Assembly (NCBI GenBank): GCA_017441925.1
Contig: JAFRUE010000014.1
Span: forward strand, 1-64,000
DNA: 64,000 nt
Direction: 5' to 3'
DNA from: Bacillota bacterium
Lineage (GTDB): Bacteria > Bacillota > Clostridia > Lachnospirales > Bianqueaceae
A program made the translations under genes and the position numbers. Positions 2,786-49,992 of this stretch are shown one piece after another. The first letter of the stretch is position 1. Every line of letters begins with the position of its first letter. Below the pieces are notes generated by a model. It saw nothing but the letters and a program-made list of their open reading frames with translations, was not told the DNA's origin and did no database searches.

Positions 2786-3979
2786 TTATATGAAAGCTTC
2801 AAATACAATATTCGCAAGATCCAGTCCGCGCCGTGTGAGACACAGTCTGTCGCCTTTCTGCTCCAGCAGTCCGTCATGCACAAGCTGCCGGATCTGATCC
2901 GGATAGACTTCCATAAAGCTCCGGCCGAATTTCTCCGCAAAATCCGTATCGGATACACCCGCCGTTTTCCTCAGGCCGAGAAACATCCATTCACTCATCT
3001 TGTCCTCAGGCGTCAGTGTCTCTTCCACTTCGGCGAGTTCCGCCGGATATTCCGCTTTTATATAGCTCTGCAGATCCGCAGTATTCTTAATCCGCTTTCC
3101 ATCAATATAAGAAGAAGCTCCGAGTCCAAGACCGAGATATTCACTCAGATCCCAATAGGACAGATTGTGACGGCTCTCCCGCCCGGGCTTAGCGAAATTG
3201 GAGATCTCATACTGCTCGAATCCGGCCGCTCCCAGGATCTTAAGCGTGTCATCGTACATGCTCCGTTCTGTTTCCTCATCCGGCAGAGTCATCCGGCCGC
3301 TCTCGATCCAGTCCAGCAACGGTGTCCCTTCTTCGACGATCAGGCTGTAGCAGGACAGATGCTCCGGCTGCAATACAAGCGCTTCCTCCAGCGTCTCCTG
3401 CCAGTCCTCCCGGCTCTGACCGGGCAGCCCCATCATCAGATCCAGGCTCAGATTGTCAAAACCCGCATCCCGCAGCATTTCGAAACTTTTCCGGACGTCG
3501 TCCATCGTATGGATCCGTCCGATCCGCTTGAGCAGCCCGTTCTGTGCAGCCTGCATCCCCATACTGACACGGTTCACACCCTGTGCCTTCCAACATCGGG
3601 CTTTTTCCGGCGTAACAGTCCCGGGATTTGCTTCGATGGTCCACTCCGCATCCGGCTCCCAGTCTAAAGCAGCGTCGTGCAAAGCGTCCGACAGCCTGAT
3701 GAAATCCTCTGGGGACATCAGCGACGGCGTCCCTCCGCCGATGAAAACACTGCGTATCTCCGCATTCCGGAAGACATGTTCCATCTCTCTGATCTCACGG
3801 CACAGTGCCGCCAGATAGGCTTCTCGGGCGAGATCACTCCCCGGTGCGGACAGGAAGTCGCAATAAGCGCATTTCCGCACGCAGAACGGGTAATGAATAT
3901 AGACGCCGAGCCGCTTTTTCCGGGTACCGCCCGACTGTGACGCCGGCCGGCTGCCCGGGATCTCTCCGGCATTCCTCAC
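2786..3979 (-). CDS. hemW: HemW-like radical SAM protein
   Basis: HemW (397 aa), related to oxygen-independent coproporphyrinogen III oxidase HemN; the HemW group is thought to be a heme chaperone. The radical SAM cluster motif C33-x3-C37-x2-C40 lies in [16 protein letters not shown]. It is followed by the SAM-binding GGGTPS and the HemW-type C-terminal domain. HemN-specific N-terminal features are absent, which favours HemW over a true oxidase. The start is GTG at 3979, overlapping the lepA stop by 4 nt (GTGA), so the two are translationally coupled. lepA-hemW adjacency is widespread in Bacillota. Confidence 0.88.
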
Positions 3980-5793
3980 GTCTTGTCGTCCTCGTCGAAC
4001 TTCAGCACGCTCATGAAAGCCGCCTGCGGGATCTCGACCTCGCCGAACTGGCGCATCCGCTTCTTGCCCTCTTTCTGCTTCTCTAGCAGCTTCTTTTTAC
4101 GGGTAATATCACCGCCATAGCATTTTGCCAGAACGTCCTTGCGCATGGCCTTGACCGTCTCGCGCGCGATGACCTTGCCGCCGATCGCGGCCTGGATCGG
4201 GATCTCAAACAAATGCCTCGGGATCTCATCCTTTAGCCGCTCCGCGATCTTGCGGCCGCGTTCGTAGGCTTTGCTCTCATGCACAATGAAAGACAGCGCG
4301 TCGACCGGTTCACGGTTGATCAGCATATCGAGCCTCACAAGCTGCGACCTCTCGTAGCTCTCGAGCTCATAATCCAGCGACGCGTATCCGCGGCTCCGCG
4401 ACTTAAGCGCGTCAAAAAAGTCATAAATGATCTCGTTAAGAGGCATGCGGTAATGCAGGATCACACGTGTACTCTCAACATATTCCGTACTGACATATAC
4501 ACCGCGGCGGTCCTGGCAGAGCTTCATGATCGATCCGATATACTCGGTCGGAAGCATGATCTCGGCCTTGACCATCGGTTCTTCCATATAGGCGATCTCG
4601 GCCGCGTCCGGCAGATCCGCCGGATTGGACAGTTCGATCATTTCCCCGTTGTTTTTATGGACATGATAGACAACGCCCGGCGCCGTCGTGATCAGGTCCA
4701 GATCAAATTCACGGTCAAGCCTTTCCTCGATGATCTCCATGTGCAGCAGTCCGAGGAAACCGCAGCGGAATCCGAAACCCAGCGCTTTGGATGTCTCTGC
4801 TTCAAAATGCAGCGACGCGTCGTTCAGTTTCAGCTTCTCCAGGGCATCCCGCAGATCCGGATAATGAGATCCGTCCGCCGGATACATGCCGCAATAGACC
4901 ATCGGCTGTACTTCTTTATAACCCGGAAGAGGCTCCGCGGCAGGCCTTGCGGCATCCGTAACCGTGTCGCCGACCCGCGTATGGCTGACTTCCTTGATGC
5001 TTGCGGTAAAATAACCGACCTCTCCGGCCGACAGGCCTTCTTCCGAAGGCATCAGCGTACCGGCGCCCATATAACCGACTTCAACGACGTCATATTCCTG
5101 TCCCGCAGCCATCAGACGGACACGCATCCCCTTGCGGATACGTCCCTCTTTGACACGTATGAAAACGATAACGCCTCTGTAGGAATCATACAGCGAATCA
5201 AAGATCAATGCCTGCAGCGGTGCTTCCGGATCGCCCTCCGGAGGCGGCAGACACTCCACGATCCGCTCCAGGACGTCGTCGATATTCTGTCCCGTTTTGG
5301 CGGAGATCAGCGGAGCCTTCTCGGTATCGAGACCGATGATGTCCTCGATCTCCTGCTTTACCCGGTCCGGATCCGCCGAGATCAGATCGATCTTATTGAT
5401 GACGGGGAGGATCTCGAGATTGTGATCCAGCGCAAGATAGCAGTTGGCAAGCGTCTGTGCCTCTACACCCTGCGTCGAATCCACGACCAGAAGCGCGCCT
5501 TCGCAGGCCGCAAGGCTCCGGGAGACTTCATAATTGAAATCCACGTGTCCCGGTGTGTCGATCAGGTTAAGGATATACTCCTGTCCGTCTTTCGCATGAT
5601 AGATCAGCCGGACCGCCTGCGCTTTGATCGTGATCCCGCGCTCCCGCTCAAGATCCATATTGTCAAGCACCTGGTCCTGCATCTCACGCTGCGTCAGCAG
5701 CCCTGTTTTCTCTATAATACGATCCGCGAGAGTCGACTTCCCGTGATCGATATGAGCGATAATCGAAAAATTACGTATATTCTTCTGAATCAT
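3976..5793 (-). CDS. lepA: Elongation factor 4 (LepA GTPase)
   Basis: LepA/EF4 (605 aa) is a ribosome-associated translational GTPase. The G domain begins with AHIDHGKST (G1), followed by [10 protein letters not shown] (G2), DTPGHVDF (G3) and NKIDL (G4). Domains II, III and V follow, with the LepA-specific C-terminal domain ending in the conserved ...[20 protein letters not shown] segment. Length is typical (about 600 aa). The ATG at 5793 is preceded by a purine-rich RBS (AAAGGGG). It is upstream of and coupled to hemW. Confidence 0.97.
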
Positions 5794-16511: not shown

Positions 16512-16638
16512 GTTCAGCGTGTCTGTGTACAGATACAAAGAACAGGCACTTGTACAGCAGCCGTTTTTATTTTTTTGACATACGCACGGTAATGCAGCCT
16601 GCGTTATGACATTGCTGAAGAGAGAAAGAAGAGGTAAG

Positions 16639-18498
16639 ATGACAGACCAGAGCAAAATCAGAAACATCGCGATCATCGCGCACGTTGATCACGGTAAGAC
16701 CACACTTGTCGACGCGATGCTGCGCCAGAGCGGCATTTTCCGTGAGAATCAGCAAGTCGACGAGCGTGTTATGGATTCGAATGACCTTGAGAAAGAGCGC
16801 GGCATTACGATCCTTGCGAAAAATACAGGCCTGGAGTACGAAGGATACAAGATCAATATCGTCGATACTCCGGGACATGCAGATTTCGGCGGCGAGGTGG
16901 AACGCAGCCTTAAAATGGCCAACGGCGTACTGCTGCTCGTCGACGCGTTTGAAGGCTGCATGCCCCAGACACGTTTTGTCCTGAAGAAAGCTCTGGATCT
17001 CAATCTGGTCCCGATCATCGTTATCAATAAAGTCGACCGTCCGATGGCCCGCCCGGAAGAAGTCTATAATGACGTTCTCGAGCTCTTCCTGGATCTCGGC
17101 GCTTCTGATGAGCAGCTGGATTCTCCGGTCGTCTATGCGTCCGCCAGGGACGGATGGGCTTCTTACTCGCCCACTGAACCGGGCACGGATCTGCGTCCTC
17201 TGTTCGAGACGATCCTTAAATCCATCCCCGCTCCGGAAGGCGATCCGGACGGACCTCTGCAGCTTCTTGTCTCGAATATCGATTATGACACCTATACCGG
17301 CCGTATCGCGGTCGGACGCATAGAACGCGGCAGACTTAAGGTCGGTGACGAAGCGGTGATCTGCGGTAAGAACAGCACTTCTTCCCGCGTCCGTCTCGCG
17401 ACTGTGTTCACTTTCGAAGGTCTTTCCCGTGTACCGCTCGTCGACGCTTCTGTCGGAGACATCGTTGCGGTCTCGGGCATTAAGGAGATCAATATCGGCG
17501 AAACGATCTGTGCTCCTGACTGTATCGAGCCTCTTCCCTTCGTTGAGATCGACGAGCCTGTCCTTTCGATGACTTTCCGCGTTAATGACAGTCCGTTCGC
17601 AGGCCGTGAGGGACAGTACGTAACGAGCCGTCATCTGCATGACCGCCTCTACCGCGAGCTTGACTCCAACATCAGTCTGCGTGTCGAGGATACGGATTCT
17701 CCCGATGCCTACGTGGTATCCGGCCGCGGTGAGCTGCATCTTTCCGTCCTGATCGAAGAAATGCGCCGTCAGGGTTATGAATTTGCTGTTTCCCGTCCCC
17801 AGGTCATCACCAAGACCGTCAACGGCCAGCTGCTTGAGCCTATCGAGATTCTGACCGTCGACCTGCCGGACATCTATACCGGAACTCTGATGGAGAGCGC
17901 CGGCGTCCGCAAGGCCGAGCTTCTGAACATGACGCAGGTCTACGGCGGATACAGCCGCGTCGAATTCAAGATTCCCGCGCGCGGCATGATCGGATACCGC
18001 AGCCAGCTGATGACCGATACCAAGGGCACAGCTGTCATCAACCATATTTTCAGCGGATATGAGCCGTATAAAGGCGAGATCATGTCCCGTACACACGGCA
18101 GCCTGATCGCTTTTGAGACCGGCGAGGCTGTCTCCTATGGGCTCTACAACGCACAGGACCGCGGCGCGCTCTTTATCGGACCGCAGACTATGGTCTATGA
18201 AGGCATGATCGTCGGTGAAAATTCCCGCGGCGGCGATATGGTCGTCAATGTCTGTAAGAAAAAGCACGTCTCCAACATGCGTTCTTCCGCGGCTGACGAG
18301 GCGCTCCGCCTGACACCGTACCGTGTCCTCAGTCTGGAACAGTGTATGGAATTCATCTCCGAAGACGAGCTTGTCGAGATCACTCCCAAGAATATCCGCA
18401 TGCGCAAGCGCTATCTTTCCGCAGAACAGCGCGTCAAGATCATGAACGCTGAGCGTTCCCGCCAGCAGGCAGCTCAGGAGAACGCTGAGCAATCTTAA
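16639..18498 (+). CDS. typA: Ribosome-associated GTPase TypA/BipA
   Basis: TypA/BipA (619 aa) is a translational GTPase involved in ribosome assembly and stress adaptation. G1 is AHVDHGKTT (residues 14-22), G2 ERGITI, G3 DTPGHADFGGEVER and G4 NKVDRP. The GGEVER stretch after DTPGHADF is typical of TypA. Domains II, III and V and the unique BipA C-terminal domain follow (...ITPKNIRMRKRYLSAEQR). Length is normal. The start at 16639 follows AGAGG; an in-frame ATG at 16606 is less well placed. It is monocistronic, with its own promoter and a hairpin directly downstream. Confidence 0.96.
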   Translation: MTDQSKIRNIAIIAHVDHGKTTLVDAMLRQSGIFRENQQVDERVMDSNDLEKERGITILAKNTGLEYEGYKINIVDTPGHADFGGEVERSLKMANGVLLLVDAFEGCMPQTRFVLKKALDLNLVPIIVINKVDRPMARPEEVYNDVLELFLDLGASDEQLDSPVVYASARDGWASYSPTEPGTDLRPLFETILKSIPAPEGDPDGPLQLLVSNIDYDTYTGRIAVGRIERGRLKVGDEAVICGKNSTSSRVRLATVFTFEGLSRVPLVDASVGDIVAVSGIKEINIGETICAPDCIEPLPFVEIDEPVLSMTFRVNDSPFAGREGQYVTSRHLHDRLYRELDSNISLRVEDTDSPDAYVVSGRGELHLSVLIEEMRRQGYEFAVSRPQVITKTVNGQLLEPIEILTVDLPDIYTGTLMESAGVRKAELLNMTQVYGGYSRVEFKIPARGMIGYRSQLMTDTKGTAVINHIFSGYEPYKGEIMSRTHGSLIAFETGEAVSYGLYNAQDRGALFIGPQTMVYEGMIVGENSRGGDMVVNVCKKKHVSNMRSSAADEALRLTPYRVLSLEQCMEFISEDELVEITPKNIRMRKRYLSAEQRVKIMNAERSRQQAAQENAEQS

Positions 18499-45511: not shown

Positions 45512-47290
45512 TTACTCACTTTCGGTCACACGGCCTATTGCGATGGTCCTGCCGCTTTCACGCACGATAATCCTGTCGCCTTCTTTGATCGGCACAGGTT
45601 TCTTCAAAGCAAGATTGACCTTGATGTTGCAGCCTCCGACAATGGGATCATCCAGGTCATCCTTGGCAAGCACTCCCGGCACTGCAATCTGGCCGCAGTA
45701 AATCATCACTTCCGCGCCTTTGAAAAGCATTTGGTGTATTCCGCCCTCTTCTCTCGTCAGGAAATTGAGATCAGCGGTAATCGACCGGCTCGTCAGATCA
45801 TGAGCATCGCTCGTAACCAACCATCCATGACCGGGCTTCTTCGGCACATCACCTTCCAGCAGGATTCCTACGCAATCACCCGGTCTCGCTTCTTTCCGCG
45901 GCCTGTGGGCACACTGGATCTCTTTCACCCGGACCGTCAATGCATCTTCCGCTGCGCCTATAATAAACACAGAGTTGGAAAGACTGACGACTCCGCTCTG
46001 TACCACGCCGGTAACGACCATGCCCTTGCCCGGAATTATACGGCTCTTATAAACAGGCATGCGGAAAGTCCTGTCCTCATGACGTTCGGGCAGCGGGATA
46101 TCGTCGATTATGCTCATCATCTCCACGATCCGGTCAGCATCGGGGCCAAAAGGATCCTGAAGCGCTTTGTCAGCGGAGCCGTCATAGGTTATTCCCTTCA
46201 CGATTTCGCTAAGTCCTGCTCTCTCCAGTTCAGATTCCAATTGCTGCATCTGGAGATTGAACAACTCCTGATTCTCCACTGCATCAGCCTTATTTACAAA
46301 GACATAGATTGCGGACAGGTTTTTGATCTCTCCTGCAATACGCAGATACTCGCGAATCCTGGCACCGTCCAGCCTGTCCGGAGAAACCACAAAGATCGCA
46401 ACATCCATCTGTCCCAGCCCGCGGATCATATTCGGAATGTAGTCAAGATGTCCCGGACAGTCATAATGCGTATAATACCGTTTCTCCGTGCGGTACTCCG
46501 CAAATGACGGCTCGATGGTTATATGTCTTTTCCGCTCAGCGTCCATATTATCCAGATCATTCACGGAATAGGTTTTGAAACCGGTCCGGTAACGCGCGGC
46601 AAGCACCTGGGTGATCGCGGCTGTCAGTGTGGTTTTGCCGGTATCGATCGGGCCGAAAGTACCGATATTCAAATGCGGCATATCGTCGGGATCCTTATAA
46701 CTGTTGACCGCCGTCTGAACGGATTTAGCAGCGGGTTCGGGTACATCGGTATCGGAACTCTTCTTTTTTTCCTTGGTTTCCCGGTCCTCTGCGTCGTTGA
46801 TTCCGGCAAACCAGAAAGCGAGAAGCGATACTACAACAAAGATAAGTGTGGCCCATTTGTCACTTTTCGGTATGCCGCATTCTATTCCGAACATCAGATA
46901 GGCGCAAATATTCAGGATAAACTGTACAAGCCTCCAGAAAAGCCCGGATAACAGCAGCCACAGCAGTACGAAGACGATGAGGAGCACCCCGACCGCCAAT
47001 AACTCCGGCTTGGCATCGGCAAACGATTCCAGCGGGTAATAACGCATTATGAGCCAGGCAGGCAGCACACATCCGGCAAAACGTAAAATACGCCTTACGA
47101 TCTTGCCTCCGCGCGTTTCCTCTTTGCTGTCCGGCTGACTATAACATGCCATGATCGCGCCGAACGCAAGGCCTGCCATGATCAGCAGTCTGAAGAACCC
47201 GGGGATCCTAACGATAAAAGCGATCAGCTTCGCCAGGACCGGATAAATCGCTTCACCGATCGTTGTCAGGATATTACAGAAAATCATCAT
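45512..47290 (-). CDS. Membrane-anchored EF-Tu-like GTPase
   Basis: A 592-aa fusion. Residues ~1-165 hold four or five membrane segments (about 32-49, 67-84, 95-117, 118-136, 145-163), then a charged linker to ~205. Residues 206-592 are EF-Tu-like over all three domains. G1 is GPIDTGKTT (213-221; EF-Tu has GHVDHGKTT), G2 RKRHITIEP, G3 DCPGHLDY with the catalytic His, G4 NKADAV and G5 GSADKAL. Domain II has PGKGMVVTGVVQSG; domain III ends RESGRTIAIGRV. GTP-site residues are kept, but residues matching the aminoacyl pocket (E215, D216, F218 of E. coli EF-Tu) read Tyr, Lys and Arg, so tRNA delivery is unlikely. RBS AGGAGG; the ATG at 47287 is equally possible. Function unknown. Confidence 0.85.
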   Translation of the reverse strand: MMIFCNILTTIGEAIYPVLAKLIAFIVRIPGFFRLLIMAGLAFGAIMACYSQPDSKEETRGGKIVRRILRFAGCVLPAWLIMRYYPLESFADAKPELLAVGVLLIVFVLLWLLLSGLFWRLVQFILNICAYLMFGIECGIPKSDKWATLIFVVVSLLAFWFAGINDAEDRETKEKKKSSDTDVPEPAAKSVQTAVNSYKDPDDMPHLNIGTFGPIDTGKTTLTAAITQVLAARYRTGFKTYSVNDLDNMDAERKRHITIEPSFAEYRTEKRYYTHYDCPGHLDYIPNMIRGLGQMDVAIFVVSPDRLDGARIREYLRIAGEIKNLSAIYVFVNKADAVENQELFNLQMQQLESELERAGLSEIVKGITYDGSADKALQDPFGPDADRIVEMMSIIDDIPLPERHEDRTFRMPVYKSRIIPGKGMVVTGVVQSGVVSLSNSVFIIGAAEDALTVRVKEIQCAHRPRKEARPGDCVGILLEGDVPKKPGHGWLVTSDAHDLTSRSITADLNFLTREEGGIHQMLFKGAEVMIYCGQIAVPGVLAKDDLDDPIVGGCNIKVNLALKKPVPIKEGDRIIVRESGRTIAIGRVTESE

Positions 47291-47371
47291 TCATCCTCCT
47301 AATAATCTGATTTCATCTACAGCTCTATTCTCCGGTTTTCTCAAAAATCTCTCTGAAAAATATATATGAAT

Positions 47372-47400
47372 ATTATACGCTGTCTTGCCTGTTTTTTCAA
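47372..47400 (-). promoter_or_regulatory. Promoter of the EF-Tu-like gene
   Basis: Minus strand: -35 TTGAAA (47395-47400), 17-nt spacer, -10 TATAAT (47372-47377), giving a ~75-nt leader. The gene therefore has its own promoter downstream of the nrdD terminator. Confidence 0.75.
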
Positions 47401-47488: not shown

Positions 47489-47527
47489 AGAAAACCATGC
47501 AATGCGTTGTTTCCGCATTACATGGTT
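47489..47527 (-). terminator. Rho-independent terminator of nrdD
   Basis: AACCATG/CATGGTT and inner AATGCG/CGCATT stems (47493-47527) with a 7-nt loop; minus strand followed by TTCTTTTC. Confidence 0.85.
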
Positions 47528-47553
47528 CTTTTCATGTTCTACTGCAGTCCGGA

Positions 47554-49992
47554 TCAGTCGGCAGCTGTCAGATGCGCCTTGAGCCAGTCAGCCGCAGCAG
47601 TGTCGCCGACATATCTCGTTCCGTCCGGATCGATAATGGTCGGGGTCTGCGTGATGTTCAGCGCTCTCGCAATATCCATATGCTCGGAGCAGTTGACGGT
47701 CTCGAATTTGACCTTCGCGATGCGGAAACGCTGCTCGGCGCCTTTGCACTTAGGGCAGTGATCCTTCACGTACATCGTCGGGACAGCTCCTGCCTTGACA
47801 TCCGCTCCCTTGATAACGGAAAGCGTGTTGTCCTTCTGCGCTTCTTTACCGGCTTCCTGTCTGTCGATCATCGTGTTGACAACGGAATCCACCAGGCCTT
47901 CATGCATCTCTTCCGGCATATAGGTCTTGCGGTTGTGGAACTCGGAGACTTTACCGTCGTTCCAGTTCTTGACCGGACGGTAGTAACCGGTGATACGGGA
48001 GTAAACCTCCGTCTCCTTGCCGCAGATCGGGCACTTGAAATGCTCGCCCGTAATATATCCGTGCTCAGCGCATACGGAATAGGTCGGGCTCATGGTGTAG
48101 TAAGGCAGCTTGTAGTTCTCCGCGATACGGCGTACCAGATGCGCGCAGCTCTTCCAGTCCGGAATACGCTCGCCGAGGAATCCGTGGAATACGGTTCCGG
48201 AGGTGTACAGTGTCTGCATCTCGTCTTCCTTATCCAACGCGTCAAAGATATCATCGGTATATCCTACCGGCAGATGCGTGGAATTGGTGTAGTACGGAGC
48301 CTGGCCGTCCTTGGCCGCGGTGATGATGTCCGGGAAATCCTTGACGTCATGTTTTGCGAAACGGTAAGTCGTGGACTCAGCCGGAGTCGCCTCCAGGTTG
48401 TACAGATCGCCATAATGCTCCTGATAATCGGACAGACGCTCGCGCATATGCTTCATGATCTCGATCGACAGCTTCTGACCCTCTTCGGTCGTCAGGTCGG
48501 TACGGGCCCACTTCGCGTTCAGCAGCGCTTCGTTCATGCCGATGATGCCGATGGTGGAGAAATGGTTGTTAAAGGTTCCCAGATATCTCTTGGTGTACGG
48601 ATACATGCCGTTTTCCAGAAGCTTGGTGATGACCTTGCGCTTGGTATCCAGAGAACGGGCCGCGATATCCATATACTTGTCGAGCATTGCGTAGAACTCT
48701 TCCTTTGTGTCGGTCATATAAGCGTAACGGGGCAGGTTCAGCGTAACAACGCCGACCGAACCGGTCGATTCGCCGGATCCGAAGTAGCCGCCGCTCTTCT
48801 TGCGGAGCTCACGCAGATCCAGACGCAGACGGCAGCACATGGAGCGGACATCCGAAGGCTCCATATCGGAATTGATATAGTTGGAGAAATACGGGGTGCC
48901 GTACTTTGCCGTCATCTCAAAGAGCATCTTGTTGTTCTCGGTCTCGGACCAGTCGAAATCCTTGGTAATGGAATAGGTCGGAATCGGATACTGGAATCCG
49001 CGTCCGTTCGCGTCGCCCTCGATCATGATTTCGATGAAAGCCTTGTTGACCAGATCCATCTCGGCCTTGCAGTCGCCGTAGGTGAAATCGACTTCCTTAC
49101 CGCCGATGATCGCCTTCTGGTCCTTCAGGTCGTTCGGTACGGTCCAGTCCAGCGTAACGTTGGTGAAAGGCGCCTGTGTGCCCCAGCGGGACGGTGTGTT
49201 TACGCCGTAAATAAAGCTCTGGATGCACTGCTTGACCTCATGGTAGTCCAGATTGTCGATCTTGACAAACGGAGCCAGATAGGTATCAAAGGAAGAAAAC
49301 GCCTGTGCGCCGGCCCACTCGTTCTGCATGATGCCGAGGAAGTTGACCATCTGGTTGCACAGTGTGGACAGATGCTTTGCCGGTGCGGAAGTAATGCGTC
49401 CCGGAACGCCGCCAAGACCCTCCTGGATCAGCTGCTTCAGGCTCCAGCCCGCGCAGTATCCGGACAGCATGGACAGGTCATGAATGTGCAGGAAGCACTG
49501 CTTGTGCGCGTCAGCTACTTCCGGATCATAGATCTCGGACAGCCAGTAGTTGGCGGTGATCGCACCGGAGTTGGACAGAATCAGTCCGCCCAGGCTCAGG
49601 GTGACGGTGGAATTCTCCTTAACGCGCCAGTCCTTGTCCTCTCCGATATATCCGTTAACGAGCGCACGGTAATCCAGGAATGTGCTCTCGGTATTTCTTA
49701 CTTTCTGATGCTGCGTACGATACAGGATATATGCCTTGGCAGTACTGGTGAAGCCGAACTTCATCAGGGACTTCTCAACTTCATCCTGGATCTCTTCTAC
49801 GCTGGGCTTGTCAAAGCCTGCATTGCGCAGACCTGTCTCTACGACAAGCTCGATCGCCTTTGCCATGGTCAGGATATCGTTATCCTTGGTAAGCTCTCCT
49901 GTAGCCTTGAAAGCTTTGATAATGGCGTTCTCGATCTTTTGTGCCTCGAACGGCACTTCTCTTCCGTCTCTTTTGATTACTGTGTTGAACAT
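47554..49992 (-). CDS. nrdD: Anaerobic ribonucleotide reductase with C-terminal redoxin domain
   Basis: A class III ribonucleoside-triphosphate reductase of 812 aa. It has an N-terminal ATP-cone (VIKRDGREVPFEAQKIENAI), the ten-stranded barrel, a zinc site (CAEHGYITGEHFKCPICG) and the glycyl-radical loop RITGYYRP with Gly669. About 140 residues follow the radical site instead of the usual ~30. The tail (from ~735) is a glutaredoxin/NrdH-like domain with C746-P-K-C749 and the cis-Pro stretch ITQTPTIIDPDG. Built-in redoxin implies reduction through thiols, probably via the nearby trxB, rather than formate; that is inference. It is cotranscribed with nrdG under NrdR boxes. Confidence 0.93.
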   Translation of the reverse strand: MFNTVIKRDGREVPFEAQKIENAIIKAFKATGELTKDNDILTMAKAIELVVETGLRNAGFDKPSVEEIQDEVEKSLMKFGFTSTAKAYILYRTQHQKVRNTESTFLDYRALVNGYIGEDKDWRVKENSTVTLSLGGLILSNSGAITANYWLSEIYDPEVADAHKQCFLHIHDLSMLSGYCAGWSLKQLIQEGLGGVPGRITSAPAKHLSTLCNQMVNFLGIMQNEWAGAQAFSSFDTYLAPFVKIDNLDYHEVKQCIQSFIYGVNTPSRWGTQAPFTNVTLDWTVPNDLKDQKAIIGGKEVDFTYGDCKAEMDLVNKAFIEIMIEGDANGRGFQYPIPTYSITKDFDWSETENNKMLFEMTAKYGTPYFSNYINSDMEPSDVRSMCCRLRLDLRELRKKSGGYFGSGESTGSVGVVTLNLPRYAYMTDTKEEFYAMLDKYMDIAARSLDTKRKVITKLLENGMYPYTKRYLGTFNNHFSTIGIIGMNEALLNAKWARTDLTTEEGQKLSIEIMKHMRERLSDYQEHYGDLYNLEATPAESTTYRFAKHDVKDFPDIITAAKDGQAPYYTNSTHLPVGYTDDIFDALDKEDEMQTLYTSGTVFHGFLGERIPDWKSCAHLVRRIAENYKLPYYTMSPTYSVCAEHGYITGEHFKCPICGKETEVYSRITGYYRPVKNWNDGKVSEFHNRKTYMPEEMHEGLVDSVVNTMIDRQEAGKEAQKDNTLSVIKGADVKAGAVPTMYVKDHCPKCKGAEQRFRIAKVKFETVNCSEHMDIARALNITQTPTIIDPDGTRYVGDTAAADWLKAHLTAAD

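Follow-up and report, generated by a model that had tools for sequence, protein, structure and literature searches.

Few proteins are as conserved and constrained as elongation factor Tu (EF-Tu). In bacteria, very few EF-Tu duplicates have diverged, and a 2015 census of translational GTPases recognised actEF-Tu as the only clearly distinct bacterial EF-Tu-like subfamily, the actEF-Tu and Streptomyces duplicates being viewed as condition-specific translation factors for stress or antibiotic resistance (PMC4342817). The word 'membrane' is absent from the text of that census, and we found no description of a membrane-fused EF-Tu in open-licence papers. A bacterial EF1-type GTPase in non-translational use is CysN, which serves sulfate activation, has an archaeal EF1A origin and works with CysD as its partner (PMC4342817). 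In eukaryotes, the yeast protein Ski7 belongs to the EF1 family, shows unusual active-site features and stable GTP binding, and has been proposed to be a pseudo-trGTPase (PMC4509514).

The window, meaning the whole 64,000-nucleotide stretch of contig JAFRUE010000014.1 that was analysed, encodes an EF-Tu paralogue fused to a predicted multi-pass membrane domain (Table 1). Its 592-residue reading frame opens with an ATG 3′ of a strong ribosome-binding site. Shared with EF-Tu (TIGR00485) are the three domains in their order, seen by Pfam, in solved relatives and in an AlphaFold2 (AF2) model, an identity of 33–39% over the EF-Tu part and a complete GTP pocket; the membrane N-terminus and the altered aminoacyl pocket, K89, EF-Ts and elfamycin sites set the protein apart. 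Pfam places GTP_EFTU at residues 205–362 (E 2e-34) and domain 3 at 502–590 (2e-10), while the match to domain 2 at 423–480 (E 9e-6) scores 26.5 bits, below the Pfam cut-off of 30.3. The closest solved structures are EF-Tus, with E about 1e-66 over residues 204–590. Against the tuf model TIGR00485 the protein scores 247 bits and does not reach the EF-Tu equivalog cut-off of 522, and it differs from CysN in scoring 60 bits where the CysN cut-off is 336.

Table 1. Coordinates of the membrane EF-Tu gene, its domains and local signals in the window, and of the EF-Tu-Sel1 fusions in two genomes of the family
Feature	Position	Strand	Remarks
Membrane EF-Tu paralogue gene	45512..47290	(-)	592 aa; ATG start
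N-terminal membrane domain (predicted), residues 1-165	46796..47290	(-)	hydropathy, AF2 (pLDDT about 50-70), conservation
Charged linker, residues 166-203	46682..46795	(-)	linker of the goat relative longer, Pro/Ala-rich
EF-Tu G domain, residues 204-403	46082..46681	(-)	GPIDTGKTT, T258 (=T61), DCPGH with H281 (=H84), NKAD 333-336, SAD 372-374
EF-Tu domain II, residues 407-495	45806..46072	(-)	altered pocket: Y414, K415, R417, C473, H488 = E. coli E215, D216, F218, N273, R288
EF-Tu domain III, residues 496-592	45515..45805	(-)	Pfam
AGGAGG ribosome-binding site	47294..47299	(-)	present also in goat and rumen relatives
Promoter-like TTGAAA-17-TATAAT (11/12)	47372..47400	(-)	hexamers and spacing identical in rumen relative
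Terminator-like 16-pair hairpin	47491..47529	(-)	3′ of nrdD, upstream of the membrane EF-Tu gene; kept, slightly diverged, in rumen relative
EF-Tu-Sel1 fusions	L029:829-2724 in G001; L019:616-2658 in G013	(-) both	

Our phylogenetic tree groups the membrane EF-Tus in one fully supported clade with a very long stem, and on sequence grounds the protein is a fast-evolving paralogue of EF-Tu by descent, within the EF1 branch of translational GTPases. The same genome also holds a normal tuf that adjoins fusA, carries GHIDHGKTT and is 68–77% identical to E. coli EF-Tu, and the membrane EF-Tu is therefore an extra gene. It resembles actEF-Tu in being a diverged EF-Tu duplicate in a genome with a normal tuf, but unlike actEF-Tu it does not appear built for tRNA carriage. 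The normal tuf is split over two contig ends, C13 and C14 of this genome (L047:18494-19396 and L050:17755-18009), about ten residues being missing at the break, and related genomes likewise have incomplete tuf genes at the ends of contigs. The window also carries the ordinary translational GTPases LepA and TypA, at 3976-5793 (-) and 16606-18498 (+).

The first-pass annotation had presented the gene as a true fusion, and the relatives bear this out. Within the genus, a goat-omasum genome (RGIG2938, JAFRZL010000014) encodes the same whole architecture in 680 residues, 46% identical overall, with 44–45% in the N-terminal domain and 47–48% in the EF-Tu part. In a rumen genome (RUG12817, CACZPA010000148) the contig breaks off after the N-terminal 125 residues, which are 98% identical, and there too the gene is sited after nrdD. 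The membrane domain, whole or its start, is present in 3/3 genomes examined for the genus, a sequence base of two full-length proteins and one fragment, all from metagenome assemblies. Because the architecture recurs in these separately assembled genomes, the fusion is unlikely to be very recent or a chimera of assembly, and no homologue without the N-terminal helices turned up.

Beyond the genus, the membrane domain was found in no other genome of the order among 392, and a peptide-pattern scan across the species genomes of GTDB yielded no relatives other than the goat and rumen ones. A full-length profile run over 398 genomes of the phylum raised the window gene alone above the EF-Tu background. 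A Pfam scan of the membrane domain with E up to 10 gave nothing credible. When phage and plasmid records were queried with the whole protein, the matches covered the EF-Tu part only and the annotated ones were ordinary EF-Tu; in IMG/VR viral contigs the membrane domain was not found. Several viral-classed IMG/VR contigs (L080-L100), some of 200–530 kb, encode an EF-Tu 58–62% identical to that of E. coli, and these may come from huge phages that have an EF-Tu of their own, or be bacterial DNA wrongly classed as viral.

Transcription from a promoter of its own, also claimed at first, holds at the consensus level, since a hairpin follows nrdD, a promoter-like element comes next and both are matched in the rumen relative. 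The goat relative differs, its membrane EF-Tu gene beginning 26 bp after another reading frame. The codon adaptation of the window gene is 0.50, other measured genes of the window ranging from 0.46 to 0.78; this low value makes high expression improbable. An isoform without the N-terminus, starting at Met204, was considered and rejected, as the goat protein has Leu at the equivalent position. Window and rumen share 97–100% identity across most of the gene's opening 375 bases (window 46915-47290 against L040:3708-4082), compared with about 88–96% in most of the flanking sequence, a difference that may reflect recombination or strong constraint.

The membrane domain begins with a conserved MMIFCNILTTIGEAIYP. 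Five likely transmembrane helices lie at about residues 31-50, 64-84, 95-115, 120-140 and 146-164, and a first helix (about 6-28), amphipathic or hydrophobic, is a possible sixth. Hydropathy segments were found at about 11-29, 31-49, 64-82, 97-115, 122-140 and 146-164, and AF2 gives N-terminal helices, at low confidence, at 2-27, 31-50, 60-84, 95-114, 118-139 and 145-179. From hydropathy and the conserved N-terminal domain, several helices are predicted to be conserved between members. The earlier description of some 165 N-terminal residues with hydrophobic helices, a charged linker and three EF-Tu domains stands, with five or six helices likelier than the four or five it had counted.

A first AF2 run on two sequences reached a pLDDT of 56; a second, to which 24 EF-Tus were added, gained mainly in the EF-Tu part (pLDDT mostly 75-95), and the membrane part was therefore not interpreted by its fold. 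The modelled EF-Tu part resembles GTP-form EF-Tu (EF-Tu-GppNHp), with 1exm at rank 1 (TM 0.90 by target), in an alignment whose many EF-Tu rows bias the model toward the EF-Tu conformation. In the window protein the first loop is basic (K56, R60, K63, R66, R67, R70) and the second (85-96) acidic. From this charge pattern and the positive-inside rule, we infer that the first loop is cytosolic and the acidic loop outside, which would place the C-terminal EF-Tu part in the cytosol.

To compare the functional surfaces, 26 EF-Tus of the order and that of E. coli were aligned, giving 176 invariant positions, with contact residues assigned from general knowledge of EF-Tu structures rather than measured on coordinates. 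Of the invariant GTP/Mg positions the window protein keeps 14/14, of those contacting tRNA 10/28 and of those contacting EF-Ts 2/9; for the goat protein the counts are 12/14, 7/28 and 2/9. Retention at the GTP positions against the tRNA and EF-Ts positions together differs in both (Fisher p = 1.1e-5 for the window protein, 1.0e-4 for the goat protein). Other invariant positions are kept at 63/125 (window) and 65/125 (goat), and against this background the loss at tRNA and EF-Ts positions reaches significance in the goat protein (p = 0.004) but falls just short of it in the window protein (p = 0.06).

At the pocket positions H66, E215, D216, F218, N273, R288 and K89, the window protein has F, Y, K, R, C, H and P, and the goat protein F, Y, K, F, S, S and P. 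The changes E215Y, D216K, F218R and K89P that the first-pass annotation had aligned by eye are thus confirmed for the window protein, and its view of a paralogue that looks unfit as an aminoacyl-tRNA carrier agrees with a pocket that is altered and not normal. Two of the residues it had singled out, the arginine of F218R and the catalytic H84, are true of the window protein but not conserved in the family, the goat protein having F and N. Since the GTP contacts are kept but those for tRNA and EF-Ts are lost, a role as elongation factor is improbable, and the membrane EF-Tu is probably not one, judging from these residues.

SelB and LepA are specialised translation factors, and a membrane-associated counterpart for special ribosomes or tRNAs would suit the EF-Tu ancestry and the overall fold that is kept. 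We consider this quite unlikely, given how few of the invariant tRNA and EF-Ts contacts are retained, the lack of any extra RNA-binding domain among those found in the protein and a gene unlinked to translation genes.

At 31 EF-Tu-invariant sites the window and goat proteins carry the identical new residue, including H66F, K89P, E215Y, D216K, R230V, R333G and T334Q; the altered surface is therefore itself conserved, a retained redesign and not random decay. The goat/window dN/dS (NG86) is about 0.36 for the EF-Tu part and 0.42 for the membrane part, at a dS that exceeds 1 and is near saturation, and a value of about 0.4 would fit a constrained protein. A decaying, functionless duplicate or a chimeric assembly, which the eroded catalytic residues of the goat protein and the narrow distribution might suggest, is accordingly hardly credible: besides the matching replacements and the dN/dS, frames of 592 and 680 residues stay open despite near-saturated synonymous sites, the architecture is repeated in separate assemblies, and promoter and ribosome-binding site are conserved between window and rumen.

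The GTP pocket of the window species looks intact, the G motifs noticed at first holding in the alignment (G1 as GPIDTGKTT, with T61, DCPGH and NKAD kept), and the protein keeps D21, K24, T25, T61, D80, G83, H84, NKxD and SA. These residues favour a true membrane GTPase, in which GTP hydrolysis would turn domain I against domains II and III and signal to the membrane domain, the goat protein being a derived exception. Yet the goat protein reads GPAGSGKTT, DCPGN and NQYD, so that one of the two full-length members is without His84 (Asn), Asp21 and the NKxD lysine (K136), and its D86, Y87 and N90 are changed too; the rumen copy ends before the catalytic site. Between window and goat, 20/29 G-motif residues are identical against 87/171 in the rest of the G domain, which is not significant (p = 0.11). 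The ribosome, the GTPase activator of EF-Tu, is an unlikely activator here, given the changes at H19, H22 and across much of the tRNA face, and the EF-Ts exchange surface is gone; we found no evidence of ribosome or EF-Ts binding, those surfaces being among the most changed. The signalling GTPase is, on balance, an unlikely reading.

With its His84 and NKxD lysine lost in the sole other full-length member, the EF-Tu GTPase switch does not stand as a conserved function of the family; nucleotide binding is probably conserved and regulated hydrolysis probably not, and nucleotide-dependent switching in the goat protein is not assured. As the nucleotide pocket is common to the family and the hydrolysis machinery is not, the best reading moves from membrane GTPase signalling to a GTP-binding adaptor. 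We therefore favour, with moderate confidence, a neofunctionalised EF-Tu duplicate that is anchored in the membrane, exposes its EF-Tu part to the cytosol and works as a GTP-bound adaptor or slow switch. The duplicate would be fixed in the cytoplasmic membrane by its 5-6 predicted helices, and its EF-Tu part would bind guanine nucleotide and not aminoacyl-tRNA or EF-Ts. Most likely, the GTP-bound part would recruit or sense a cytosolic partner and would either pass a signal to the membrane domain or be positioned by it. Hydrolysis of GTP may persist in the window species, and the goat protein would probably be a pseudo-GTPase.

The nearest logical parallel to this adaptor would be Ski7, in mode of action and not in membership. 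Ski7, too, is paralogous to a translational GTPase of the tRNA type, has replacements among its active-site residues and binds partners through its N-terminal part; it differs in being eukaryotic and Hbs1-related, kin only through the shared superfamily. To our knowledge, it has no membrane domain. A Ski7-like mode is pointed to only from the residue losses of the goat member.

A role in defence, which had also been suggested, finds no support at this locus. PADLOC gives the fusion protein only a weak partial match to LeoA (E 0.001, with no stretch passing alone), and the neighbours are ordinary: nrdD and nrdG lie upstream, and a gene resembling thioredoxin reductase and another for a GntP-family permease lie downstream. 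Upstream of the goat gene lie a DinG-type helicase gene and, 26 bp away, a gene for an MBL-fold protein; GH127 and GH30 genes follow downstream. The helicase matches PADLOC typeIV_DinG, which we read as a general DinG match. Neither locus shows a convincing sign of mobile, phage or defence surroundings. The two loci have no neighbour in common, nrdD being sited elsewhere in the goat genome, and so no partner can be inferred from them. The NrdD of the window (47554-49992, -) has a glutaredoxin-like C-terminal domain (Pfam 739-779), a possible built-in reductant.

The fast evolution seen in the tree and the retention of T382, the target of the Doc kinase, could be seen as marks of a decoy, a membrane-held EF-Tu mimic absorbing toxins, proteases or antibiotics or substituting for EF-Tu under drug. 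This is very unlikely. The loss of the aminoacyl pocket makes EF-Tu replacement implausible, defence matches and a defence neighbourhood are not convincing, and the drug-site positions are changed (Q124E in the window protein only, R230V, G257E/R, R333G, T334Q, A375I), which makes a drug sponge unlikely. An elfamycin sponge or resistance factor was set aside on the same ground, the elfamycin-site positions being among those changed.

EF-Tu carries a second kind of fusion in this family. EF-Tu-Sel1 proteins of 631 and 680 residues, with C-terminal Sel1 repeats, are encoded in the goat genome and in one other genome of the family; elsewhere in the order no such fusion rose above the EF-Tu background (2/392 genomes, both of this family). 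Like the membrane EF-Tu, they are diverged duplicates with an extra module, but they have no membrane domain, and the tree, to be read with caution for its long branches, sets them in a clade apart. They keep E215, D216, N273 and R288 of the aminoacyl pocket and are without the switch residues T61 and G83, so that by residue content their losses are the mirror image of those of the membrane type.

Tentatively, the membrane EF-Tu may represent an undescribed class, a membrane-integral, EF-Tu-derived G protein of Bacillota that is receptor-like or an adaptor, and, with the separately evolved Sel1 fusions, EF-Tu may have been repeatedly recruited for non-translational regulation in the family. 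Such a protein would give bacteria an equivalent of Ski7 and other EF1-family adaptors of eukaryotes, and would separate, as an experiment of nature, the parts of EF-Tu that serve translation from those that serve nucleotide binding. It suggests that protein-synthesis machinery has been reused at the membrane, within a range limited to one genus of ruminant-gut bacteria. Beside the Sel1-type EF-Tu of the goat genome lie two adjacent genes for large, closely similar lipoprotein-like proteins (L048:2057-5709, -), which have no Pfam match and carry a zinc-protease-like motif, HEIGHMFG.
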